Assembly (NCBI GenBank): GCA_017621225.1
Contig: JAGATN010000010.1
Span: 62,001 to 126,000 of the forward strand
DNA length: 64,000 bases
Reading direction: 5' to 3'
Source of the DNA: Muribaculaceae bacterium
GTDB lineage: Bacteria > Bacteroidota > Bacteroidia > Bacteroidales > Muribaculaceae
Shown here one piece after another: positions 16,707 through 46,104 of the stretch (positions are counted from its first letter, which is position 1; each line of letters opens with the position of its first letter). The translations under genes were made by a program, and so were the position numbers. The notes beneath the pieces are model-generated. The model did no database searches. It was not told the DNA's origin and was given only the letters and a program-made list of their open reading frames with translations.

Positions 16707-18065
16707 ATGCCGACAAACAGCGATTCCACAAATCAATCGAAAATAGCGCGCCTGTATAAGCGTGCGGTCGACGCCTGGAATTACTTTAACGTAGGCATAT
16801 GGCGCAATACCGACAACACCCTGAAGGTAAACATTATCAAAACCTTGAGCCTGACGGTGCGCTCTTTTTTAAGCACTAATTTGCAGTCAAAAGCGTGTGC
16901 GCTGACCTACAACACGCTACTCGCCATAGTTCCGGCATTGGCTCTCGTATTCGCAATAGGCAGAGGGTTCGGACTGCAAAACCTAATATCAACGCAACTT
17001 TACAAATACCTGCCGTCGCAGCACAAGGCACTCGAAGCCGCATTGGGATTCGTCGACTCATATCTGTCGCAGGCATCCGAAGGCATATTCGTAGGCGTAG
17101 GCATAATATTCCTGCTCTGGACGTTGATATCGCTGCTCGGCAACGTAGAAGACACGTTCAACACCATATGGCAGGTAAGGGAAGGCCGAAGCTTCTGGCG
17201 AAAAATAACCGACTATACGGCCATATTCCTCGTGCTGCCCATACTTATGATATGCGCCAGCGGTCTCACCATATTAATGTCGACCACGTTACAGTCGCTA
17301 CTGCCCGATCAGATGTTCGGTCCCGTGATAAAGGTAATACTTGATTGCGCAAGCTTCATATTCACATGGCTGTTTTTCGCCGGGGCCTACATGCTGATAC
17401 CGAATACGAGCGTGAAATTCCTGAATGCCCTGATATCGGGCATGGTGGTAGGAACGGCATTCCAGATATTGCAATGGATATTCGTAAGCGGACAGATGTA
17501 CGTGGCCAAATACAACGCCATATACGGAAGCTTCTCGTTTTTGCCGTTAATGCTCATTTGGCTGCAATTGACGTGGCTGATAACGCTCATTGGCGGACTG
17601 GTGTGCTACGCATCACAAAACATCGGCCAATTCAACTTTGCCGACGACGTGAAAAACATATCGCTGAACTATCGTCGGCAGGTGACGCTCGTGATAATGG
17701 CCATCGTGGCCCGACGATTCCAAGCCGGCAAGGCACCCGTAACGGTCTCGGAGATATCCGAACGCTACATGTTGCCACCCAATCTTGCCACCGACATAGT
17801 GATAGATCTTCAAAGAGCCGGGCTGATCAATTTCATCCAAGCCGAAAAAGAATTTAACGAGCATCCGCTTCAGCCTGCGCGCGACATAAGCAACATGTCG
17901 GCAGGCGACGTGATACGCTGTTTGCAAAACTACGGACAAAGCAATTTCATACCCGATTTCGACCACCGATATGCCGAAGCGATAAAAGTGGGCAACGAGA
18001 TTGTGGATGCAATGAGTTCAATTGCCGACTCCGTACCGATAACATCCATCGACATTGACGTTTAA
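16707..18065 (+). CDS. YihY/BrkB-family membrane protein with C-terminal winged-helix-like domain
   Basis: The protein is 452 aa from the ATG at 16707 (MPTNSDSTNQ); an in-frame TTG at 16701 is less likely. The N-terminal 300 residues are the YihY/BrkB core with about six membrane helices: SKACALTYNTLLAIVPALA, LISLLGNVEDTFNTIW, ITDYTAIFLVLPIL, FIFTWLFFAGAYMLIPNT and YGSFSFLPLMLIWLQLTW. E. coli YihY is about 290 aa, so some 140 residues are extra. They include RRQVTLVIMAIVARRF, VSEISERYMLPPNLATDI and LQRAGLIN, which reads as a winged-helix fold on the cytoplasmic side. The function of the family is unsettled (putative transporter; it was once misnamed RNase BN). Confidence 0.85.
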   Translation: MPTNSDSTNQSKIARLYKRAVDAWNYFNVGIWRNTDNTLKVNIIKTLSLTVRSFLSTNLQSKACALTYNTLLAIVPALALVFAIGRGFGLQNLISTQLYKYLPSQHKALEAALGFVDSYLSQASEGIFVGVGIIFLLWTLISLLGNVEDTFNTIWQVREGRSFWRKITDYTAIFLVLPILMICASGLTILMSTTLQSLLPDQMFGPVIKVILDCASFIFTWLFFAGAYMLIPNTSVKFLNALISGMVVGTAFQILQWIFVSGQMYVAKYNAIYGSFSFLPLMLIWLQLTWLITLIGGLVCYASQNIGQFNFADDVKNISLNYRRQVTLVIMAIVARRFQAGKAPVTVSEISERYMLPPNLATDIVIDLQRAGLINFIQAEKEFNEHPLQPARDISNMSAGDVIRCLQNYGQSNFIPDFDHRYAEAIKVGNEIVDAMSSIADSVPITSIDIDV

Positions 18066-18109
18066 TCAACCTAAATACTTTTTTATTAACAATCAAAATC
18101 ATTACTGAA

Positions 18110-18487
18110 ATGAAAAAACAAATTGCAACCAACAACGCACCCGCAGCCATAGGCCCTTATAGCCAGGCAATCGACATGGGCAACATGGTATTCATCTCCG
18201 GCCAGATACCCGTAAACCCCGCTACCGGCGAAGTTCCCGAAGGCATCAAGGCTCAGACTGCTCAGTCAATAGCCAACATCAAGGCCATACTTGCCGAAGC
18301 AGGTCTGAAAATCAACAACGTAATAAAGACCACCGTATTCTTGGCCGACATGAGCCTGTTTGGCGACATGAACGAAGTTTATGGTCAGGAATTCACGATG
18401 CCCTACCCCGCTCGCTCGGCCGTTGCCGTAAAGGAACTGCCCAAGCAGGTGCTCGTGGAAATCGAAACTATTGCTCTTAAGGACTAA
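18110..18487 (+). CDS. ridA: RidA, reactive intermediate/imine deaminase
   Basis: The protein is 125 aa, a complete YjgF/YER057c/UK114 family member: AIGPYSQAIDMGNMVFISGQ, a VIKTTVFLADMSLF segment, and the catalytic arginine in PARSAVAV. It hydrolyses enamine/imine intermediates released by PLP enzymes. The TAA stop (18485-18487) also serves as the left target-site copy of the palindromic element inserted downstream. Before that insertion the ridA and folC stop codons would have overlapped. Confidence 0.95.
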   Translation: MKKQIATNNAPAAIGPYSQAIDMGNMVFISGQIPVNPATGEVPEGIKAQTAQSIANIKAILAEAGLKINNVIKTTVFLADMSLFGDMNEVYGQEFTMPYPARSAVAVKELPKQVLVEIETIALKD

Positions 18488-18652
18488 GAAACTGTTCAAA
18501 TTTATTTGTCGAAGGAATTGAGAGGATTTGTCAAGTAGATTTTTGATATTTATGAAGGAGTTATGGGGTTCCATAATGACTGAATAAATATCAACAAGAT
18601 GCTGACAAAGGCCTCAATGACAAGACAAAATAAATTTTTAAACAGTTTCTAA
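18485..18652. mobile_element. MITE-like palindromic element (162 bp plus TAA target-site copies)
   Basis: The element runs from GAAACTGTTCAAA (18488) to its inverted counterpart ending AACAGTTTC (18649) and is flanked by TAA at 18485-18487 and 18650-18652. The whole length folds as one imperfect hairpin: GATATTTAT pairs with ATAAATATC, and at the tip TTATGG pairs with CCATAA. It has no coding capacity. Terminal inverted repeats plus a 3-bp TNA-type target duplication suggest a non-autonomous derivative of an IS5-superfamily transposon. It sits exactly in the ridA/folC stop-codon overlap and harms neither gene. It may now act as a bidirectional terminator. Confidence 0.75.
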
Positions 18653-19947
18653 TCTTTAAGCGACAGAAAGTCGGCCACAACGAATGTTGACCCGCCGATG
18701 AAAATCATATCGTCCTCGCCGGCTTCGGCGAGGGCTTTTTTGTATGCGTCGCCCACGGTATCGAAAGTTTCGCCGAATAGCCCGTGCGTCGCGGCTTTTT
18801 CGGCAAGATCCGATGCCGCCATGGCGCGTGGTATCGAAGCGTTGGTAAACAGCATCGTGGCATCGGGAATGGTGGCCATGATACTCAGTATGCTGTCCAC
18901 ATCCTTGTCGCCAACGAAGCCAATCACCATAAATTTGCGACGCCGGGAGTCGGAAAGCTGACGCGACAACAGCTCCCATCCCCCTTGATTGTGCCCCGTA
19001 TCGCATATCACCAAAGGCTTGTCGGAAACCTTCCACCACCGACCCATAAGGCCCGTAAGCGTAGTCACATCGCTAAATCCGCGCGCCACGGCATCGCTCC
19101 CGAGCTGCCACCCCGACTCATTGAGCAGGTCGATGGCCGTAAGTATGGTGGCGGCATTCAGCTTTTGACAAATGCCGGTCAGTTCGCCACGAATTTCGCC
19201 ATAATTCACCGTATCGTAAACGAGGCAGCCGTCGCCCTCAACCACTTTTTTTATCGGCTTATGCTCGGCGGCATAAATAGCGCGCGCCCCGGTTTTCGCG
19301 GCCACGCGGTCAAACACATCCTTCACGTCGCCCTCAGCCTCGCCAATCACCACGGGGATTCCGGGCTTCATTATGCCCGCCTTTTCCGCCGCAATCTCGG
19401 GCAGCGTGTTGCCGAGAAACTGCGTGTGATCCTTCGATATGTTGGTTATTACGCACAACTCCGGAGTTATTATGTTGGTGCTGTCGAGACGGCCGCCGAG
19501 CCCTACCTCGATCACGGCCACGTCGACCGCTTCCGACGCAAAATATTCAAACGCCATCATCATGGTAAGCTCGAAAAACGACGGCTTGCAGTCAAGCCCC
19601 ATGTCGAGATATCGATTGACGAAATCGACCACCTTGTCGGCCGGAATCATGCGTCCGTCGACTCGTATGCGCTCCCTGAAATCCACCAGGTGCGGCGACG
19701 TATACAATCCGGTCTTGTAGCCCGCGCTCTGAAGCACCGCTGCAAGCGTGTGCGCCGTCGAGCCCTTGCCATTCGTTCCGGCCACGTGTATCGACTTGAA
19801 TTTACGATGCGGATGGCCAAACGCTTCGTCGAGCATCATCGACGTTTGGAGTCCGGGCTTGTAAGCGCTCCCGCCCTCGCGCTGAAAAACGGCAAGTTGC
19901 GAGAATAAATAATCTATGGTTTTTGAATAATCTTCGAAATGTTTCAT
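18649..19947 (-). CDS. folC: bifunctional dihydrofolate/folylpolyglutamate synthase
   Basis: The protein is 432 aa, a Mur-ligase-family protein. It has the P-loop VAGTNGKGSTAHTLA, the SPHLVDFRERIRVDG loop, EVGLGGRLDSTN, NISKDHTQFLGNT, the KAGIMKPGIPVV region and DTGHNQGGW in the C-terminal domain. It adds glutamate to dihydropteroate and to reduced folates in the cytoplasm. The protein ends SLKD and its TAG stop is completed by the first base of the inserted palindromic element (base 18649). Bases 19948-19990 separate it from the ChrA genes upstream, which probably share its transcript. Confidence 0.95.
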   Translation of the reverse strand: MKHFEDYSKTIDYLFSQLAVFQREGGSAYKPGLQTSMMLDEAFGHPHRKFKSIHVAGTNGKGSTAHTLAAVLQSAGYKTGLYTSPHLVDFRERIRVDGRMIPADKVVDFVNRYLDMGLDCKPSFFELTMMMAFEYFASEAVDVAVIEVGLGGRLDSTNIITPELCVITNISKDHTQFLGNTLPEIAAEKAGIMKPGIPVVIGEAEGDVKDVFDRVAAKTGARAIYAAEHKPIKKVVEGDGCLVYDTVNYGEIRGELTGICQKLNAATILTAIDLLNESGWQLGSDAVARGFSDVTTLTGLMGRWWKVSDKPLVICDTGHNQGGWELLSRQLSDSRRRKFMVIGFVGDKDVDSILSIMATIPDATMLFTNASIPRAMAASDLAEKAATHGLFGETFDTVGDAYKKALAEAGEDDMIFIGGSTFVVADFLSLKD

Positions 19948-19990
19948 CTTGCTATGTATACATTATGACGAGCAGCACCATTACGGCACG

Positions 19991-20560
19991 CTAAAAACAC
20001 AAATATCCGGCCAATCCCGCTATCAATATCACTACGATGGGGTGCATCTTCACAAAAAACACCATTATGAATGCAGCCACGCATATTGCTATGCTCACCG
20101 ATATGGCATATGTATCGTATCCGAAATTCGAGCCGTTCATAAGCAGCAATGCCGCCGATGCTATCAGCCCAACCACCACCGGGCGCAAGCCGGCAAACAT
20201 GCCTTTCACTATCGTGCTCTCCCTGTGGCGCGATATGAAATGGCTCACATAGATGGTCAGCATGAACGAGGGCACCACCACCGTAAGCGTGCATATTATC
20301 GAGCCTAACAATCCGTATATCGGCGACGACAGTGCCGGACTCGACATGCCCGGTGCGACATATCCTATGTAAGTGGCCGAGTTGATGCCTATCGGCCCGG
20401 GAGTCATCTGCGAGATGGCCACTATGTCGGTAAACATCTGACCGCTTATCCATCCCGGCCCTACAATCTCGCGCTCTATCAACGCAAGCATCGCATATCC
20501 GCCTCCGAATCCAAACAGGCCTATCTTCAGGTACGACCATATCAATCTGAGGTAAATCAT
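19991..20560 (-). CDS. chromate transporter ChrA, second half-size subunit
   Basis: The protein is 189 aa and very hydrophobic. It has the ChrA N-terminal signature (FGFGGGYAMLALIEREIV) and the ISQMTPGPIGINSATYIGY motif. It is a single-domain ChrA, about half the length of the Pseudomonas protein; such short forms occur as adjacent pairs that work together in the inner membrane. The start overlaps the end of the other half by 4 bases (ATGA type). Substrate (chromate or sulfate exchange) is inferred from the family only. Confidence 0.88.
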   Translation of the reverse strand: MIYLRLIWSYLKIGLFGFGGGYAMLALIEREIVGPGWISGQMFTDIVAISQMTPGPIGINSATYIGYVAPGMSSPALSSPIYGLLGSIICTLTVVVPSFMLTIYVSHFISRHRESTIVKGMFAGLRPVVVGLIASAALLLMNGSNFGYDTYAISVSIAICVAAFIMVFFVKMHPIVVILIAGLAGYLCF

Positions 20561-21144
20561 TTCTCACCCTCCTTTCCCTCTTTCGACCGAATTTTCTTCT
20601 GAGTATGCGAAAGCCACAAATAGCCGCCAACGCCGCCAAGCACTATGTAAAGTATCGGGTTCGACACATACGGCAGCTTCGACCATATCAAAAGCGCCAC
20701 CCCTATCGGAATGATGGCCGTGCGCCACGTTATCTTGGCCGTGCGCGCCGACGATATGACGGGTGCGATTATCAGTGCCACTACGGCCGGACGTATCCCC
20801 ATGAACACCTTGCTCAAAACAGGATCGTTCTTTATCAGATCGGGAGTCAGGAATATGGCTATGAGCAGTATCATGACAAACGACGGCAAGATGGTTCCCA
20901 ACGCCGAAACAATGCTACCTTTACGGCCTTGAAGCTTGTCGCCGACGGCCACCGAAATATTTACGGCAAGTATGCCCGGGAGCGACTGCGCTACGGCAAG
21001 CAAATCAAGAAATTCCTCTCGGCCAAGCCATTTGTGTTTGTCAACAATCTCCTTTTCAATGATCGAAATCATCGCCCATCCGCCTCCAAACGTAAATGCT
21101 CCGATTTTAAAAAATGTAAAGAATAATCGAGCCAACATATTCAT
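20557..21144 (-). CDS. chromate transporter ChrA, first half-size subunit
   Basis: The protein is 195 aa from the ATG at 21144 (MNMLARLFF). A longer in-frame reading to 21246 would run across the promoter element at 21160-21167, so it is rejected. Motifs FTFGGGWAMISIIEKEIV and VAQSLPGILAVNISVAVG match the ChrA fold, with the two conserved GGG and PG regions. The last residues are charged (KKIRSKEGKEGEK). It pairs with the second half-size protein downstream, overlapping by 4 bases. It is divergent from the META lipoprotein gene. Confidence 0.88.
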   Translation of the reverse strand: MNMLARLFFTFFKIGAFTFGGGWAMISIIEKEIVDKHKWLGREEFLDLLAVAQSLPGILAVNISVAVGDKLQGRKGSIVSALGTILPSFVMILLIAIFLTPDLIKNDPVLSKVFMGIRPAVVALIIAPVISSARTAKITWRTAIIPIGVALLIWSKLPYVSNPILYIVLGGVGGYLWLSHTQKKIRSKEGKEGEK

Positions 21145-35202: not shown

Positions 35203-35964
35203 CTATACGATCACGTGTCTGTCAGGGATGAAATTGTGGTGTTCATTGGCGAAAACGTACCCTAATTGATTGGACAGACATTGGGTTTTACCAATCTTGG
35301 CATCAATATTTGTATGCGAATGTCCGTAAATCCAATAGTCAATGTTGCTATCAACGATATAGTCCTCCAGTTCTACGGTGAATGCTCCGTTTGCCTTGCT
35401 ACCCTGAAACTTTGGATGAAGCATACGGAATGACGGCACATAATGGGTGACGACAATCTTGTTGGTGGCCTTTGACCGTGCCACTGCATCTTTGATGAAT
35501 GTCAGGCAACGTTTATGTTCGGCATTGAACTTGGCAAAAGTCATTAGTTCACCTTCATATAATATACGGCGAAAATCGCTGACCACCTGTTCCGTATAAT
35601 ATGCATTCTCCAATGGAATCCTTGACCAAAGAGTAGACATAATAATATCCGTGTCATCAAATTGCACAATACCATTATAATGACTGAACACATTGGGGCG
35701 TATCTCCATGACATAGCCATCGGGCAATGTCGCCACATCATAAAATTTGTAAAACTCATGGTTGCCCATACAACAATGCACTTCCTTATAGTTTTCTGAT
35801 GCCCAATTCCAGAACGGATGTTTGGAATAGTTATCATCACCAAGATAACCAATGTCGCCGGCAAGAAGCAACACATCGCCCTTCACTTCCAAAGGATGGG
35901 CTTTGAGATAACGCCAGTTGTCGGCAAACTCCAAATGCAAATCGGATGCGTATTGTATCTTCAT
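35203..35964 (-). CDS. calcineurin-like metallophosphoesterase
   Basis: The protein is 253 aa with all metal-binding motifs of the calcineurin superfamily: YASDLHLEF (Asp8, His10), LLLAGDIGYL, MGNHEFYK, THYVPSF and YGHSHTNID. No signal peptide, so cytoplasmic. It is the third gene of a tight leftward operon, 5 bases after a nucleotidyltransferase-fold protein that itself overlaps a winged-helix protein. Hydrolysis of a nucleotide, an NMP adduct or nucleic acid ends is plausible given this context, but the substrate is unknown. Lower GC than the core genes suggests acquisition with the islet. Confidence 0.8.
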   Translation of the reverse strand: MKIQYASDLHLEFADNWRYLKAHPLEVKGDVLLLAGDIGYLGDDNYSKHPFWNWASENYKEVHCCMGNHEFYKFYDVATLPDGYVMEIRPNVFSHYNGIVQFDDTDIIMSTLWSRIPLENAYYTEQVVSDFRRILYEGELMTFAKFNAEHKRCLTFIKDAVARSKATNKIVVTHYVPSFRMLHPKFQGSKANGAFTVELEDYIVDSNIDYWIYGHSHTNIDAKIGKTQCLSNQLGYVFANEHHNFIPDRHVIV

Positions 35965-35969
35965 CTTAA

Positions 35970-36749
35970 TTATTCTTCAATAAACAATCCATCAAGTTGA
36001 TCTATCAAATCTTTCACGAATACCTCGTCTTGGTCAAGCGATTTCGACAAAGGAGTGGCAAGTGCAGTCCAATCAGCTCTGATAGAAGCAACAAACTCCC
36101 TAACACACGCCACAATTGGAATCGGAGCCTCTATGGCGTCCTCCGTTATTATGACCAAATTCTTCAATACATCCGAGCGATGTTTTTTGATGTCTTTGGT
36201 ATTCACATGTTTGCCAGCCTGTTTATCGGCGAGAAGATTAAGATATGCTCTTGCCTTCAATGCTATCAATGCTGCCGAGTCGGCATGGCGTATTCCATCT
36301 GTCAGTTGACTATGTGCAATGGTGAAATGATAGTATTCATCAGCCATAATAATGGCGCTTAGGCTTGAGACATCCTCATCGGTGGGGATTGGTTCAATTA
36401 CAAATCCTTTTGGCTCACCTAACACGTCAGGATGACGTGACAGCAACTCTATCATTTCAGGATATCCTTCTTTACCGTCCAGAAAACGATATAATTCGTA
36501 TTGAGGAGGTTCGCCGTCATCCTGCTTCCGCTTCTCAGGGCGATAGCCTGCTTCTTGAACAAACTGCCAAAAGCGATTGGCGAAGGCTTCAGTCATATTC
36601 TCTATTATGACTATCATATCAATGTCGTGCGTAGCGCGAGGGCGTACCACGGTGTTATTAATAGTGATGCTGCAAGCCGTACCGCCTATAACCACATAGT
36701 TGTCCGTGTATTCTGCAAATGCTTCGCGGAATTTGTCTAATCCGTCCAT
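35970..36749 (-). CDS. nucleotidyltransferase-fold protein (AbiEii-like toxin candidate)
   Basis: The protein is 259 aa. An MNT/AbiEii-type core is visible: YVVIGGTACSI (GGTA at about 22-25) and RATHDIDMIV (Asp pair about 42-44) would bind metal and NTP. A later ALKARAYLNLLADK and DIKKHRSDVLKNL match the helical part with the conserved Lys and Asp of AbiEii-family proteins. It overlaps the upstream winged-helix gene by 13 bases and is followed after 5 bases by a metallophosphoesterase. In known type IV and MNT systems such proteins add nucleotides to tRNA or to partner proteins; that is inference here. Confidence 0.7.
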   Translation of the reverse strand: MDGLDKFREAFAEYTDNYVVIGGTACSITINNTVVRPRATHDIDMIVIIENMTEAFANRFWQFVQEAGYRPEKRKQDDGEPPQYELYRFLDGKEGYPEMIELLSRHPDVLGEPKGFVIEPIPTDEDVSSLSAIIMADEYYHFTIAHSQLTDGIRHADSAALIALKARAYLNLLADKQAGKHVNTKDIKKHRSDVLKNLVIITEDAIEAPIPIVACVREFVASIRADWTALATPLSKSLDQDEVFVKDLIDQLDGLFIEE

Positions 36750-37708
36750 TTCAATTCATTGATTATTCGTTCTACTTCCTTTTCCACTCTCGGATCGTCA
36801 TCTTCACGCAGGGAGAGAATAAGCGAGAGCCTGTCAACCCATCCGTCATTATTACCCTTAATGCTGACAACGGGGTGCTTCCATACCTCTACCATTATGT
36901 TGCCATCATATGGATTGGGGTTGTCAATGGCATCTGCCGACTTTATGGCACGATATTCCTTACCTGTCATCATTATCATACGTTCCTTATCAGGATTGAG
37001 CATAGTATAATGGGCCAAAGCATTGATGCCACACACGGGATAATCTGCACTAAGGCGTATGGCGTCGCAATACATACGATACTCCACCGGTGACTGTAAG
37101 ACGTTTTGCGCCTTATCCCACAAATCCTCACCCTTCAACTCAAAATGAATTACCTTGCTGCGTTGTCCATTTTGCACTTTCCGACACAGACTCACATCTT
37201 CAAGACAGGTGATACCCAACGTCACACTTTCGTAAGAGTATGGCAAGAGTGGTGCAATCATCCTCGCCGACATTCCTTCGAGACTACATACTTGCAAGTG
37301 GTAGAGCAGAAGGTATTGTCCAACAGGTGTCAATACTTCAGCTTTCTTTCTGTTGGAGGTCTTTTCCATCGCAACAATCATAGGCAGATGGGCATACCGC
37401 TCTGACATAATGAAATAAACGCCCTTATCCATAAGCCTCTGACGTTCGTATGTAGGACCGGGCGCAAGTATAAACACCACAGGTAGCCCCAATGCCTCAC
37501 TTAACCGCCTACCCGTAATGTCGCACTCTCTTGGGGTTGGATTTCCATTTTTCGGCTCCAAAAATAGCAGAGGCATACCCTGATATATGCCATCATAGAA
37601 GCTATATGATAATTTTTCGCCAATGGAGACACCCTTTAGATTGTCGTTGGCACGAAGTTCCAGCTCAATCTTACGCCCCAATATCCATATGTATCTTTTA
37701 AAATTCAT
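36737..37708 (-). CDS. winged-helix AbiEi-like regulator (antitoxin candidate)
   Basis: The protein is 323 aa. The middle part reads as a winged helix (LTPVGQYLLLYHLQVC, ARMIAPLLPYSYESVTLGIT, DVSLCRKVQNGQRSKVIHFEL). A C-terminal segment contains CGINALAHYTMLN and the EVWKHPVVS strand, the pattern seen in AbiEi-type antitoxins. The first 110 residues form an alpha/beta domain that I do not recognise (LGRKIELELRANDN, LLFLEPKNGNPTP). It heads the leftward three-gene operon. A 17-bp perfect palindrome overlaps its promoter region and would suit autoregulation. Confidence 0.6.
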   Translation of the reverse strand: MNFKRYIWILGRKIELELRANDNLKGVSIGEKLSYSFYDGIYQGMPLLFLEPKNGNPTPRECDITGRRLSEALGLPVVFILAPGPTYERQRLMDKGVYFIMSERYAHLPMIVAMEKTSNRKKAEVLTPVGQYLLLYHLQVCSLEGMSARMIAPLLPYSYESVTLGITCLEDVSLCRKVQNGQRSKVIHFELKGEDLWDKAQNVLQSPVEYRMYCDAIRLSADYPVCGINALAHYTMLNPDKERMIMMTGKEYRAIKSADAIDNPNPYDGNIMVEVWKHPVVSIKGNNDGWVDRLSLILSLREDDDPRVEKEVERIINELKWTD

Positions 37709-37741
37709 TTTGCAACATTTTAATCACACATTAAAACGTAG

Positions 37742-37773
37742 CAAAATTACATATAATAATTGATAATCAATTA
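37742..37773 (-). promoter_or_regulatory. promoter and palindromic operator of the leftward nucleotidyltransferase operon
   Basis: Reading leftward, TAATTTTG (37749-37742) is a -7 element. Seven bases upstream is the perfect palindrome TAATTGAT-A-ATCAATTA (37757-37773), lying between -7 and -33, where a bound repressor would block polymerase. Confidence 0.55.
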
Positions 37774-37816
37774 CATTTTAACGAAAAAGTAGCTTTACTG
37801 CACTTAATTTCCCCAA

Positions 37817-37892
37817 ATTATCGACAATTCTCATACTTAGAATTATTGTCGATAATGAAATATTTCATATATTTGCGTGTTATTCTAAGTAT
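37817..37892 (+). promoter_or_regulatory. promoter with two interleaved inverted repeats (AbiEi operator)
   Basis: ATTATCGACAAT (37817-37828) pairs perfectly with ATTGTCGATAAT (37845-37856). Interleaved with it, ATACTTAGAAT (37833-37843) pairs perfectly with ATTCTAAGTAT (37882-37892). Between them lies the -7 element TATATTTG (37868-37875). The repeats cover the -33 region and the expected transcription start, 2 bases before the ATG at 37894. AbiEi of Streptococcus binds two inverted repeats in its own promoter, so autoregulation is likely. Confidence 0.7.
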
Positions 37893-37893
37893 A

Positions 37894-38631
37894 ATGGATA
37901 TATACGGAACATACGCATTGGCCAATGCCTACATAAACGCACAATCGACGCCGGTCAAGGAGTCGGTCATATGGTCACGTCTTCGTCAGGGGAAAAAGAA
38001 GAATATTCTGGGGTTAGTTCGCAAAGGGGTATATATGCCCGTGGAAATAAACAACAAATTTATAATAGGTTGCAATGCCGTACAAGATGGTGTCATTGCC
38101 TACCATTCTGCATTGGAATATTACCTTTTGCAAACGCAAGAGTTCAACGAGCTGTATATACATTCCTCTAAAAATTTCCGAACATTTGAATATCTTGGGG
38201 AAACGTACTCATACAAAAAACTAAAATTCCTCCATAAAGTAATAGAAACGGTTGACCGTTCGGGATATGCGTTGAGAGTTACATCGCTATCGCAAACATT
38301 GGTAGATTGTATGTATAACATCAATCTTGCCGGTGGTATCGAGGAATTAATGTATGCTCTTTCGGAATGTCAAACAAATAGCATCTGCGAGAATGACCTG
38401 TTGAAATGTCTCGAACTTTACGATAACAAAAGTCTGTGGCAGCGTGCCGGTTTTTTATTTTCCATATTTAATCATCGCCTGAACTTGTCGGGAGGGTTCT
38501 TCAATAAATGCAAATCGGCAATGGGAAAGAACCAAAGTTACATTATAAATCCGTACTTTTGCAATAGCTTTAACAAGGAATGGAATCTATGCATCCCTGA
38601 CAACCTCCAAACCCAACTCAAAGCAATATGA
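37894..38631 (+). CDS. abiEi: AbiEi-family type IV antitoxin/transcriptional regulator
   Basis: The protein is 245 aa from the ATG at 37894 (MDIYGTYALANAYIN); longer readings would run through the operator. The N-terminal winged helix is followed by the LVRKGVYMPV segment that closes the AbiEi N-domain. The C-terminal antitoxin domain begins GVIAYHSALEYYLLQT and continues with LRVTSLSQTLVDCMYNINL, matching the AbiEi VTSxExTLxDC pattern. In type IV systems it represses the operon and counters the toxin without a stable complex. It overlaps the toxin gene by 4 bases (ATGA). Confidence 0.82.
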   Translation: MDIYGTYALANAYINAQSTPVKESVIWSRLRQGKKKNILGLVRKGVYMPVEINNKFIIGCNAVQDGVIAYHSALEYYLLQTQEFNELYIHSSKNFRTFEYLGETYSYKKLKFLHKVIETVDRSGYALRVTSLSQTLVDCMYNINLAGGIEELMYALSECQTNSICENDLLKCLELYDNKSLWQRAGFLFSIFNHRLNLSGGFFNKCKSAMGKNQSYIINPYFCNSFNKEWNLCIPDNLQTQLKAI

Positions 38632-39593
38632 AGTTCGAATACGACAAAAAGCAGATCCAACAAATTGCAGCGGAACACTCCTACACAGCTACCAACGTGG
38701 AGAAAGTCATACGCTTGTGTCTTATTTTGGACGATCTAAACAACCTTGACGAATTTGCAGGAAAATTATTATTAAAAGGAGGCACTGCCATAAACCTTGT
38801 TGCCTTTGACGAGCTTCCAAGACTTAGTGTGGATCTTGATTTAGATTTTGCGGTAAATCTATCAAAAGATGATATGATGGTTGAGCGTTATAAAATCAAC
38901 AATTACATATCATCATATGCCGAGAATGCGGATTACACGTTGAGTAATCGGAGCAGTTATATTCTGGATTCAAAGTCATTACTTTATACAACAACTACGG
39001 GTAGCCTTGACAAAATAAAACTTGACATCAACTATCATTCCAGATGCCATGTATATCCGTATGTCATCAGTGAAATAGAAGCGCCATTCAAACTATTGGA
39101 ACGACATATTAAAGTAGCTCACTTGAATATAATCGAACTTTTTGCAGGCAAAATAAAAGCCTTGTACGAGCGATGCAAGCCACGCGATATTTTCGATATA
39201 TACACATTGGCTCAATCAGGATTGCTGACAACTGACGATGAACGAAACGCGCTGCGACGTTGCACCGTACTCTATTCTGTATTAGGCAATGCTGACAAGC
39301 CGAACTTACTAAAACAAGACTTAAATGAAATTCGCAAAATACCGTTCCAAGCGCTAAAAACGCAACTACTTCCGATGCTACATACCCAATTAGGTCGTTT
39401 TGACAAGGATCAACTACTTGATACAGCCGTGGAATATCTTAAAAATCTGATGATATTGGAGGATGCGGAAACGGAGTTCATTGAACGTTTTTTCAACGGT
39501 GACTTTCGTCCAGAACTATTGTTTGATAAACCTACATCAGATAATTTAAGACAGCATCCGGTAATTCTACGTACCCTAAAAATGATGTTGTAG
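38628..39593 (+). CDS. abiEii: AbiEii-family nucleotidyltransferase toxin
   Basis: The protein is 321 aa. The AbiEii motifs are all present: motif I KGGTAINL (50-57), motif II SVDLDLDF (67-74) with the metal-binding aspartates, motif III in LDKIKLDINY, and motif IV FAGKIKALYERCKPRDIFDIYTL region with the conserved Lys, Arg and Asp. It is an NTP-dependent nucleotidyltransferase; characterised relatives (MenT, AbiEii) block growth, MenT3 by adding nucleotides to tRNA. It is paired with the AbiEi gene by a 4-base overlap. The system probably gives abortive phage defence or element maintenance. Confidence 0.85.
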   Translation: MKFEYDKKQIQQIAAEHSYTATNVEKVIRLCLILDDLNNLDEFAGKLLLKGGTAINLVAFDELPRLSVDLDLDFAVNLSKDDMMVERYKINNYISSYAENADYTLSNRSSYILDSKSLLYTTTTGSLDKIKLDINYHSRCHVYPYVISEIEAPFKLLERHIKVAHLNIIELFAGKIKALYERCKPRDIFDIYTLAQSGLLTTDDERNALRRCTVLYSVLGNADKPNLLKQDLNEIRKIPFQALKTQLLPMLHTQLGRFDKDQLLDTAVEYLKNLMILEDAETEFIERFFNGDFRPELLFDKPTSDNLRQHPVILRTLKMML

Positions 39594-44310: not shown

Positions 44311-44586
44311 GATTGGGAAAATTCCCATCATAACATTTTTGGAAAAATAAGAAGCGTTATGCTTATCTTGTGTTTGGAAACGTAGGACCTTTTCAAATTG
44401 AATACAAGGATTAGCATAGTGGTTCTCACGCTATAGCGTGGGCTGCTATAACTACATCTGTATTCAAGGTTTCCTACGACCTCCAAACTAAGACGTGGCA
44501 TTGCAGTTCCACGCTTCGTGTTTGTAGATAAATCTGCTTGAGGGACTGAAAGTGGAAGAACAATATTGGATATTAAATTTCACAAC
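44311..44586 (+). ncRNA. structured RNA (leader or independent ncRNA), unassigned family
   Basis: This 428-base gene-free interval holds a rod-like fold at 44372-44488. GTTTGGA (44372) pairs with TCCAAAC (44482), CGTAGGA (44381) with TCCTACG (44472), TTGAATACA (44398) with TGTATTCAA (44459), ATAG with CTAT, and CACGC (44427) with GCGTG (44436) at the tip, with small internal loops. Smaller hairpins precede it (AAGC/GCTT near 44352) and follow it (CGTGG/CCACG near 44494-44512). The overall shape recalls 6S RNA or a large cis-regulator, but no known consensus is recognised. There is no terminator before the lipoprotein gene, which favours a 5' leader. Confidence 0.5.
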
Positions 44587-45252
44587 ATGAAAACAAAATC
44601 CTTAATAATCACCCTCGTTGCTTTTTTAGGACTATGTTCTTGCAAACAATCCAAAGAAGAAAAGGCACAACAAATGATTGTTGAATACTTTAAAGACAAA
44701 GTGTATCACTTTGATAGCTACAAACCTTTACAAACAAAAGTGGATAGCTTATTCGTTTCATTAGCTTTTGACAAGGAAGCCATTTATCTCACATTGGACA
44801 TGTTAAAGCTCTTCCAATTGAAAGAAGAATATACAAATAAGATTGAAGACGCGGAAAGCTCTATGGACATTTGGTCACCCGATGGCTATTCTTCAACGTA
44901 TAGTCGCGGAGAATATAAACGTGCAAAGAAAGAGCGAGATGAAAACAAACGGCGATTGGATAAGACAAAAGACCGCATAAAAGCTCAATTTGACAAAATA
45001 AAGACACGTCAGTCAAAAATCAAGACAGGTGTTTTTGATGGGTGGAAAGTATATCATAGGCTTAAGTGTTTGAATGGGGCAGGAACTTTTGATTTATTCG
45101 ATGAACACATATTTTTATGCGATAAGAATTTCAATGTAAAATTCGAATGCTCAAAAAAAGATTTTGAGTTCCTTTCAAAAATTCTAAATACTATTGCAGT
45201 ATCGGATGATGTACCTGAATTTGTTGAAAAACTACAAGATGTCATATTTTAA
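44587..45252 (+). CDS. lipoprotein of unknown function
   Basis: The protein is 221 aa from the ATG at 44587. The lipoprotein signal MKTKSLIITLVAFLGLCSC places the lipidated Cys at 19. The mature part is strongly charged, with a likely coiled coil (GEYKRAKKERDENKRRLDKTK region, about 115-140), followed by a compact C-terminal domain that includes DGWKVYHRLKCLNGAGTFDLF. I do not recognise the family. The gene is clearly AT-rich compared with neighbours and has the structured leader upstream, so it looks acquired. The next gene starts 12 bases later. Confidence 0.6.
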   Translation: MKTKSLIITLVAFLGLCSCKQSKEEKAQQMIVEYFKDKVYHFDSYKPLQTKVDSLFVSLAFDKEAIYLTLDMLKLFQLKEEYTNKIEDAESSMDIWSPDGYSSTYSRGEYKRAKKERDENKRRLDKTKDRIKAQFDKIKTRQSKIKTGVFDGWKVYHRLKCLNGAGTFDLFDEHIFLCDKNFNVKFECSKKDFEFLSKILNTIAVSDDVPEFVEKLQDVIF

Positions 45253-45264
45253 TATATAGAATAT

Positions 45265-46104
45265 ATGATAATAAAAAAACGCCCCATAATAACATGGCTT
45301 TTAAATCCTGATAGCCAAAAACACACCGATGGCATTTTGTTATCCGAAGTAGCTAATTCGATGAATCATCAAATTCTAAATAAACATATAGCCGAATTGG
45401 ATAACATAAGACTTCAAAAGCCGATGTGGGGACTACCTGAATTACTTATGCCTTCTTTTGAGGATGTTATGAAAAGAACCGTTTCATCTTTTAAGGAAAT
45501 GATGCCTACTCTGTTTCAGGAATTCAGCGAGCAAGAGGAGTGTGGAATCTTATTATGCAAACGGAATGTCACTTTGGTTTATAGATTTGTAGACAACAAG
45601 TTACATATATGGTATTTCATAGAGGAAAACGGCAAAAGTATTTTTAAATTTTATTCATATTGTGAGCATATTGAACTTCGACTCAAAGTTAATATAATAT
45701 CGTCATTAATACAGGATGATGGCTTGTTCAAAGGTTCAATTGAAGAACGAGAGAGTTCCATTGGTTCAGTTTCAAATTTTATCGCTTCATATATTGCCGT
45801 AAAAAAGCATATGAAAGTCGAAATCGTCGTTATCCCACAAGGGAAATTTACTGCAATTGAAGGCACACCTCTTGAATATGTTGATAAAAAGAAGGTTATA
45901 AACCAAACCGGGCAAGAGGTTATTGTCATGGATTCAAAATGGTTTAGAAAGATTGTAAATGATAATGACATTTATGTTCGTGGTTATTTGAGAATGCAGA
46001 ATAAAAAGAACGATAAAGGAGAGCTTGTTAAAGAATTAATCTTTATTGATCAGCATGTGCGCCATGGGTATCATAGGAATGCAACGATTGAAGATGTTAT
46101 GTAA
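45265..46104 (+). CDS. unknown protein, partner of the AT-rich lipoprotein gene
   Basis: The protein is 279 aa with no signal peptide or membrane segment. It begins MIIKKRPIITWLLNPDSQ and has mixed alpha/beta composition. Visible stretches are NHQILNKHIAELDNIRLQK, LCKRNVTLVYRFVDNKLHIWYF and a C-terminal VIPQGKFTAIEGTPLEYV. None matches a family I can name. It is AT-rich like the lipoprotein gene 12 bases upstream, so the two were probably acquired together. The stop at 46104 is followed by a 190-base gap with the promoter of the sigma factor gene. Confidence 0.55.
   Translation: MIIKKRPIITWLLNPDSQKHTDGILLSEVANSMNHQILNKHIAELDNIRLQKPMWGLPELLMPSFEDVMKRTVSSFKEMMPTLFQEFSEQEECGILLCKRNVTLVYRFVDNKLHIWYFIEENGKSIFKFYSYCEHIELRLKVNIISSLIQDDGLFKGSIEERESSIGSVSNFIASYIAVKKHMKVEIVVIPQGKFTAIEGTPLEYVDKKKVINQTGQEVIVMDSKWFRKIVNDNDIYVRGYLRMQNKKNDKGELVKELIFIDQHVRHGYHRNATIEDVM

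Follow-up and report, generated by a model that had tools for sequence, protein, structure and literature searches.

Among described toxin-antitoxin (TA) systems, the closest to the locus considered here are MenAT1 and TakA-TglT (MenAT3), whose toxins are nucleotidyltransferases (NTases) of the AbiEii/DUF1814 type subject to phosphorylation. In the available portions of the published accounts, MenT1 carries the motif R37-T39-D41-x-D43 and is phosphorylated on T39 (PMC11375011), and TglT carries R76-S78-D80-D82 and is phosphorylated on S78 (PMC7205606). According to the same portions, the phosphate silences the toxin, and the residue that bears it is dispensable for toxicity (PMC11375011, PMC7205606). 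The TglT authors postulate "a currently unidentified phosphatase," and in the text available a general phosphatase acts slowly in vitro (PMC7205606). Here we describe a leftward three-gene operon in a 64,000-nucleotide stretch (the window) of a Muribaculaceae bacterium (assembly GCA_017621225.1, contig JAGATN010000010.1, positions 62,001 to 126,000), part of a 2.53-Mb draft genome (G000). The operon encodes a winged-helix protein (WH), an NTase (NT), and a calcineurin-like metallophosphoesterase (MPE). Our tentative reading is that this is a three-part TA-like module in which MPE would be the phosphatase that switches NT back on, making a reversible phospho-switch.

As far as the available text describes them, MenAT1 and TakA-TglT resemble this operon in that a regulator gene adjoins the NTase gene and the NTase carries R-x-[S/T]-x-D-x-D, followed further on by a conserved acidic residue. 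They differ in being two-gene systems with antitoxins of other families, whereas here the regulator has a central MarR-like winged helix and a third gene encodes a phosphoesterase. AbiE systems share with the operon a winged-helix regulator gene that overlaps the NTase gene, as well as a mobile-element and defence context, but WH has no AbiEi match, NT falls below the AbiEii cut-off, motif IV is not conserved, and there is a third gene. HEPN/MNT (HepT/MntA) systems also have a DNA-polymerase-beta-type nucleotidyltransferase in a two-gene core, but no HEPN family is found for any of 56 WH members (E ≤ 0.01) and NTP_transf_2 matches only 1 of 58 NT members. The CCA-adding enzyme with an HD phosphohydrolase likewise couples an NTase to a phosphoesterase, but one of another superfamily and with no regulator gene. 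In the titles and abstract openings of the open-access literature, we recognized no description of an NTase toxin with a phosphoesterase in its operon and found none of an enzymatic antidote that reverses an NTase product.

Judged by its motifs, NT is related to AbiEii/DUF1814 but misses motif IV and falls below the Pfam cut-off. In an alignment of 58 NT relatives, motif I residues G22 and G23 are present in 57 rows (the exception is one cut row). In motif II, R38 is present in 57 rows (Q in the same cut row) and D42 and D44 in all 58. T40 and E101 are likewise found in 58/58 rows. The GG-x18-DhD spacing is longer than the x15 given in the published text available. Motif III (KLxAaxxR) retains K165, A168, and Y/F/W169, each in 58/58 rows, with its final R replaced by L/I/N172. 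Across all 173 NT sequences (107 distinct), x-T-x-D-x-D is invariant and R stands two residues before T in 172; only L063, a row truncated at its start by a contig end, has Q there. Twenty of the 58 relatives match Pfam AbiEii at E ≤ 0.01, the best at 1e-5 (these are E-values, not bit scores). PADLOC models give only scattered matches, to 1 or 2 of the 58 NT and 56 WH members, PHROG gives none for any of the four proteins tried, two NT and two WH, and solved structures gave nothing informative for NT or MPE.

The WH profile matches MarR structures at about residues 110 to 207 of 323 (best E value, 9e-4), so that the winged helix is central, not N-terminal as in AbiEi antitoxins. WH had been described as AbiEi-like in a first-pass annotation of the window, but none of its 56 members matches an AbiEi family in Pfam (E ≤ 0.01) or in PADLOC. 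As a candidate AbiEi it was also rejected by hhalign, which gives a probability of 0.2% against the window's own AbiEi. MPE is a complete calcineurin-like phosphoesterase, as that annotation had stated (PF00149, 8e-15, 56.2 bits against a cut-off of 21.5). It corresponds to phrog_1649 metallo-phosphoesterase (3e-40) and weakly matches PADLOC PDC-S10 (2.8e-6). Its metal site (D8, H10, D37, N68, H69, H174, H215, and H217) is intact in 46/46 rows, with the motif set DLH...GNH...GHxH.

The three-gene order is conserved across genomes, in agreement with the annotation's proposal of a TA-like NTase-phosphoesterase module, and the lack of such conservation that the annotation had named as grounds for rejecting it is therefore not seen. 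Relatives of NT occur in 12 of 61 related genomes, including its own (2 are short remnants), in 26 of 393 genomes of the order (1 weak, 8e-4), and in 6 of 395 genomes of a phylum sample (2 weak, about 1e-6 to 1e-5). They also occur in 49 of 72,556 plasmid records, in 3 of 50,697 phage records, and at 17 viral-contig loci. A scan of GTDB genomes gave 388 relatives. Among the best 80 of these, WH, NT, and MPE lie on the same strand and in the same order in 71, a figure that is biased because the best 80 are the closest relatives. The other 9 comprise 2 with a short or broken MPE, 2 without MPE, and 5 at contig ends (3 cut before WH, 1 before MPE, and 1 inside NT). The NT-MPE spacing is -4 or -1 nucleotides (nt) in 59 of the 76 loci among the best 80 in which both genes could be placed.

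A broader view comes from 71 NT loci taken from all sources, dereplicated at 97%, and flanked on both sides (the window's own short locus is excluded). WH is present in 71/71. The arrangement is WH-NT-MPE in 48 (MPE is short in L077), MPE-WH-NT in 6, WH-NT-MPE2 in 1, and WH-NT alone in 16, where MPE2 is a second PF00149 enzyme (L207, 3e-8) that the MPE profile misses. Thus, 55 of the 71 operons include a phosphoesterase gene; two gene orders and two phosphoesterase families are represented. In the order sample, a phosphoesterase adjoins the WH-NT pair in 14 of 25 NT genomes (E < 1e-9; hand count): after NT in 6 (NT is broken in G548), before WH in 5, and of the MPE2 kind in 3. None was found in 7 of the remaining 11 (G053 is near a contig end), and 4 are unjudgeable or remnants. 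MPE itself is present in 73 of 393 genomes of the order, about one gene in a fifth of them, and we estimate that well under one case of NT-phosphoesterase adjacency would be expected by chance.

In order to compare the evolution of the three proteins, 63 dereplicated triples (1,953 pairs) were examined. Pairwise identities are correlated at 0.93 for WH-NT, 0.76 for NT-MPE, and 0.74 for WH-MPE, and mean identity is 0.40 for WH, 0.51 for NT, and 0.59 for MPE. WH and NT differ by more than 28 points in only 1 of the 1,953 pairs, and MPE exceeds NT by more than 28 in 31. At four loci (L065, L066, L067, and L075), the WH-NT block has been replaced between conserved flanks: compared with L019, the flanks and MPE are 78 to 94% identical, NT is 65 to 69% identical, and WH is mostly unalignable. 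The covarying identities and the block swaps suggest that WH and NT form a matched pair that changes fast and that MPE is a common tool.

Loss of individual genes bears on which member of the pair is the toxin. At 7 loci (L012, the second copy in L084, L118, L119, L121, L131, and L151), WH is intact but the adjoining NT is missing or broken, while an intact NT without WH was found in 0 of 85 (7/96 versus 0/85; Fisher P = 0.015). Initially 11 of 99 WH loci were flagged as lacking NT, of which L029, L053, and L225 (NT present) and L120 (in-frame shortening) were excluded. Most loci were collected with NT as the query, a bias that works against this result. Such one-sided loss is the pattern expected from the shedding of a toxin, and the toxin is therefore probably NT. 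In L077 and L092, NT is intact but MPE is short or broken, which argues that MPE is not an essential protector, although assembly errors are possible for any broken copy. G780 and the second copy in L084 retain WH-MPE without NT.

The gene neighborhoods place the module on integrative and conjugative elements (ICEs), phages, and plasmids and in type I restriction loci, with some copies in or beside defence genes. L019 and 13 near-identical copies (L015 to L018, L020 to L026, L028, and L031) are 99.4 to 99.97% identical over 5 to 18 kb, to the limits of the contigs, in records from Leyella, Bacteroides, Phocaeicola, Parabacteroides, and Prevotella. In L019, a primase-like gene borders the module on one side and tra genes (DUF4134, DUF4133, and TraG) border it on the other, on an element with a tyrosine integrase. 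This conjugative element (L019:2784-20774) also has a group II intron reverse transcriptase in its tra region that is absent from most copies. On the phage contig L226, the module is bordered by a tail tape-measure gene and, at its opposite end, by genes for a DNA methyltransferase and a tail or head protein; L217, L231, and L239 resemble it by eye. In L196, L197, L203, and L224, the module is lodged within a type I restriction system, with an hsdM-like gene on one side and an hsdS-like gene on the other. The five plasmids examined from outside Bacteroidota (L234 to L237 and L240) have WH-NT without MPE, and the Phocaeicola plasmid L233 has all three genes. Near some modules there is a SIR2-like gene (L220), SMODS/DncV (L224), AbiEi_4 (L230), or an nSTAND3 protein (L240). 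On the last of these, a Methylocella plasmid, the gene after WH-NT (L240:3973-8071, + strand) encodes a 772-amino-acid (aa) nSTAND3 protein with a weak Mrr-like region, from which it appears that the third slot can hold another defence-type gene. Signaling like that of the cyclic-oligonucleotide-based antiphage signaling system (CBASS) was considered and rejected: no effector or SMODS is inside the operon, and among the neighbors tested SMODS/DncV is nearby only in L224. One contig of a metagenome-assembled genome labeled Pseudomonadota (L056) has a typical Bacteroidales copy (NT, 65% identical) and is probably misbinned.

In the reading that we tentatively favor, the module probably has a role in phage defence or in element addiction, and the phospho-switch would work as follows. 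WH would repress the operon and neutralize NT. Free NT would be toxic through the transfer of nucleotides to a target in the cell, most likely to RNA, in the way that its MenT relatives modify tRNA. Silent NT would be phosphorylated on the active-site residue T40, with WH prompting this, and MPE, responding to some presumed trigger, would strip the phosphate and so rearm the toxin. MPE is a candidate for the rearming phosphatase because it is carried in the operon of an NTase with the same invariant residue. Somewhat more doubtful is the fuller version in which the operon holds a complete phosphorylation cycle: NT autophosphorylation at T40 would be the antitoxin-prompted writer, and MPE, or the separately recruited MPE2, would be the eraser, the whole being spread by ICEs and phages among gut Bacteroidales and found also in type I restriction loci.

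Several observations weigh against the phospho-switch. NT scores 17.0 bits against Pfam AbiEii, under the cut-off of 22.5, and its motif IV (+DxxD) is not conserved: D186 is present in 45/58 rows, and the place of the second D is K189 in 58/58. WH matches neither a kinase family nor AbiEi (TakA-type). The conservation of T40 may reflect a need in catalysis and not in control. The DLH first motif of MPE is associated with phosphodiesterases, and protein phosphatases have GDxHG; GDIHG is found only in MPE2. The 16 of 71 NT loci that have no phosphoesterase in the operon keep R-x-T-x-D-x-D in all 15 examined, so a dedicated phosphatase is not obligatory. Nor need one exist, because a general Ser/Thr phosphatase in the TglT host could, by the published text available, act slowly. 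Finally, ~62 of 78 order-level places of MPE (E ≤ 1e-10; linked ones were hand counted from coordinates) are not beside WH, NT, or NT', the NTase of a more distant pair described below.

The first alternative, put forward in the first-pass annotation, is that MPE is an antidote that removes a nucleotide adduct, or trims a tail, put by NT on RNA or protein. NTase and phosphoesterase are indeed coupled, and once fused, and DLH...GNH...GHxH fits phosphodiesterases as well as phosphatases. However, MPE is absent from the same 16 loci and damaged beside an intact NT in two others; because WH is found at every NT locus while MPE may be absent or broken, the indispensable protector would be WH. The retention of one MPE type while WH-NT is swapped would be natural for a general-purpose enzyme, although a general adduct remover fits too. 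Linkage alone cannot separate this antidote from the phospho-switch. We consider it rather unlikely.

According to a second alternative, the two enzymes act on one RNA end: MPE would clear a 2',3'-cyclic or terminal phosphate, after which NT would extend the end with nucleotides, so that cleaved tRNA is capped or repaired. A precedent for this layout, an NTase plus an HD phosphohydrolase, is the CCA enzyme of E. coli. An NT'-MPE fusion speaks for this alternative, and anticodon nucleases such as PrrC also occur in hsd loci, where four of our modules lie. However, the loss of NT beside an intact WH suggests relief from a toxin and not the loss of a repair enzyme, and two-gene WH-NT loci are common. 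We regard RNA-end processing as improbable.

The fusion belongs to a distant pair of a helix-turn-helix (HTH) gene and an NTase gene, HTH-NT', in which MPE follows NT' in L158, is fused to it in L161 (492 aa), and is joined to an NT' remnant in L162. NT' is taken to be an NTase because it has a GG...R-x-T-x-D-x-D motif and because relatives on plasmids are annotated AbiEii/AbiGii; Pfam gives no match for it. NT' is found in 16 of 198 genomes, and a link to MPE is known in 3 of the 16, a minority. When viral contigs were scanned for the NT'-MPE fusion, one locus was found, on the L218 contig. In G672 and G717, MPE2 overlaps the end of NT; in G042 it adjoins WH and is divergent to it.

A tree of 98 MPE rows (quick method; rows gathered mostly through NT) requires 14 changes of arrangement, compared with a mean of 36.8 when shuffled. 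One clade (65 rows, starred) holds 54 of the 56 WH-NT-MPE enzymes together with 6 solitary MPEs; another (27 rows) holds the 6 MPE-WH-NT enzymes and 21 solitary MPEs. The two gene orders are thus likely to be of separate origin, which is not proven because the branches that part the two clades are unstarred (Shimodaira-Hasegawa-like approximate likelihood ratio test [SH-aLRT] values of 85 and 87). In the window's 65-row clade, 10 of 16 order-sample places adjoin WH, NT, or NT' (hand count; 4 of the 16 were assigned via near-identical rows). Therefore, the phosphoesterase being found mostly alone, which the first-pass annotation had named as grounds for giving up the module, holds order-wide but not for the clade to which the window's MPE belongs. 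That MPE is a housekeeping gene sharing the operon, with no part in the NT cycle, draws support from the many unlinked places, but it sits poorly with two gene orders, two phosphoesterase families, one fusion, close spacing, and intact metal sites, and we regard it as very improbable. Least probable of all is a reversed polarity, in which NT would be the antitoxin (like MntA; nucleotidyltransferase antitoxins exist in HEPN/MNT systems, by the available text of PMC7641770) and MPE the toxic enzyme, since MPE relatives occur without WH or NT in many genomes, WH-MPE lacks NT in G780 and the second L084 copy, and NT without MPE is common.

Some solitary MPEs have neighbors of their own. In L157 (892-3623, + strand), MPE is followed by XRE-like and HipA-like open reading frames (ORFs) (by eye), possibly another phospho-regulated TA neighbor. 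In L164, L181, and L195 (and also near L183), a solitary MPE lies beside or between hsdM-like and hsdS-like genes, without WH-NT; these hsd calls were made by similarity to the Pfam-tested L196/L203 proteins and are weak in L164 and L183.

The features of the window are listed in Table 1. All five ORFs reported in the first-pass annotation are intact, as are the 13-bp overlap between WH and NT, the 5-bp gap between NT and MPE, and the motifs GGTACS and HDIDMIV in NT and GGTAINL and SVDLDLDF in AbiEii. Its description of an AT-rich islet also holds: the G+C content is 0.412, compared with 0.514 at 25 to 35 kb and 0.506 at 39.7 to 43.6 kb. In an empty-site comparison, congeners with both flanking genes have their best matches on different contigs, so that no insertion point can be defined. 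Farther right, at 44566-46104, a very AT-rich part of the window (G+C, 0.33 to 0.38) holds two ORFs with no Pfam match at E ≤ 0.001.

Table 1. Coordinates of the two divergent operons and associated features, in window positions
Feature	Position	Strand	Basis or remark
MPE, calcineurin-like metallophosphoesterase, 253 aa, third gene	35203..35964	-	ORF list, PF00149
NT, DNA-polymerase-beta-type nucleotidyltransferase, 259 aa, probable toxin	35970..36749	-	ORF list, motif R38-x-T40-x-D42-x-D44
NT codons 38-44 (R-A-T-H-D-I-D)	36618..36638	-	T40 = position equivalent to MenT1 T39 / TglT S78
WH, 323 aa, central MarR-like winged helix, first gene; probable antitoxin and repressor	36737..37708	-	
Intergenic region between the two divergent operons	37709..37845		
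Perfect 12-nt inverted repeat, operator-like, at AbiEi start	37817..37856 (37817-37828 / 37845-37856)		
Perfect 11-nt inverted repeat, second operator-like site	37833..37892 (37833-37843 / 37882-37892)		
AbiEi, antitoxin of rightward pair	37846..38631	+	PADLOC AbiEi 2e-64
AbiEii, nucleotidyltransferase toxin of rightward pair	38628..39593	+	Pfam AbiEii 77.2 bits, PADLOC 1.8e-86

The rightward pair was read as an AbiEi/AbiEii type IV system, and this is upheld: the AbiEii domain exceeds the Pfam gathering score (22.5 bits), and abiEi lies upstream of abiEii and overlaps it by 4 bp. The Pfam AbiEi_1 score of the window's AbiEi is 15.9 bits, under its cut-off of 22.2. An inverted repeat as perfect as the longer one in Table 1 (≥12 nt) arises in only 3 of 300 dinucleotide shuffles. 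The published abiE operator, in the text available, also has a perfect 11-bp repeat (PMC3985639), and the paired perfect repeats at the AbiEi start match the layout of the abiE promoter in that account, so we regard them as operator-like and as predicted operators. The likelier start of AbiEi is the ATG at 37894, right after the repeats, rather than the called TTG at 37846, which is inside them.

The head-to-head position of this pair had been taken as part of the arrangement, but the AbiE neighbor appears to be incidental. When the window's AbiEi and AbiEii were compared with loci L001 to L240 (phmmer, E ≤ 1e-4), only L084 matched outside their own genome; this single-sequence search misses distant AbiE proteins, such as the AbiEi_4 of L230, a different AbiEi that is divergent to WH-NT. 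Among the 61 relatives, the window's AbiEi has matches in 7 other genomes, at ≤31% identity (best E value, 5e-30). In L084, the NT-less second copy (WH-MPE; 17766-20624) lies alongside a complete copy and near the relative of the window's AbiEi.

The module is carried by the mobile DNA of gut Bacteroidales, and its WH and NT are largely unrecognized by the PADLOC models searched. If MPE in fact reverses the product of the NTase, it would be an enzymatic antidote. With a concrete NT-MPE pair from a non-pathogen in hand, the question raised by TglT, of which phosphatase rearms the toxin, becomes testable.

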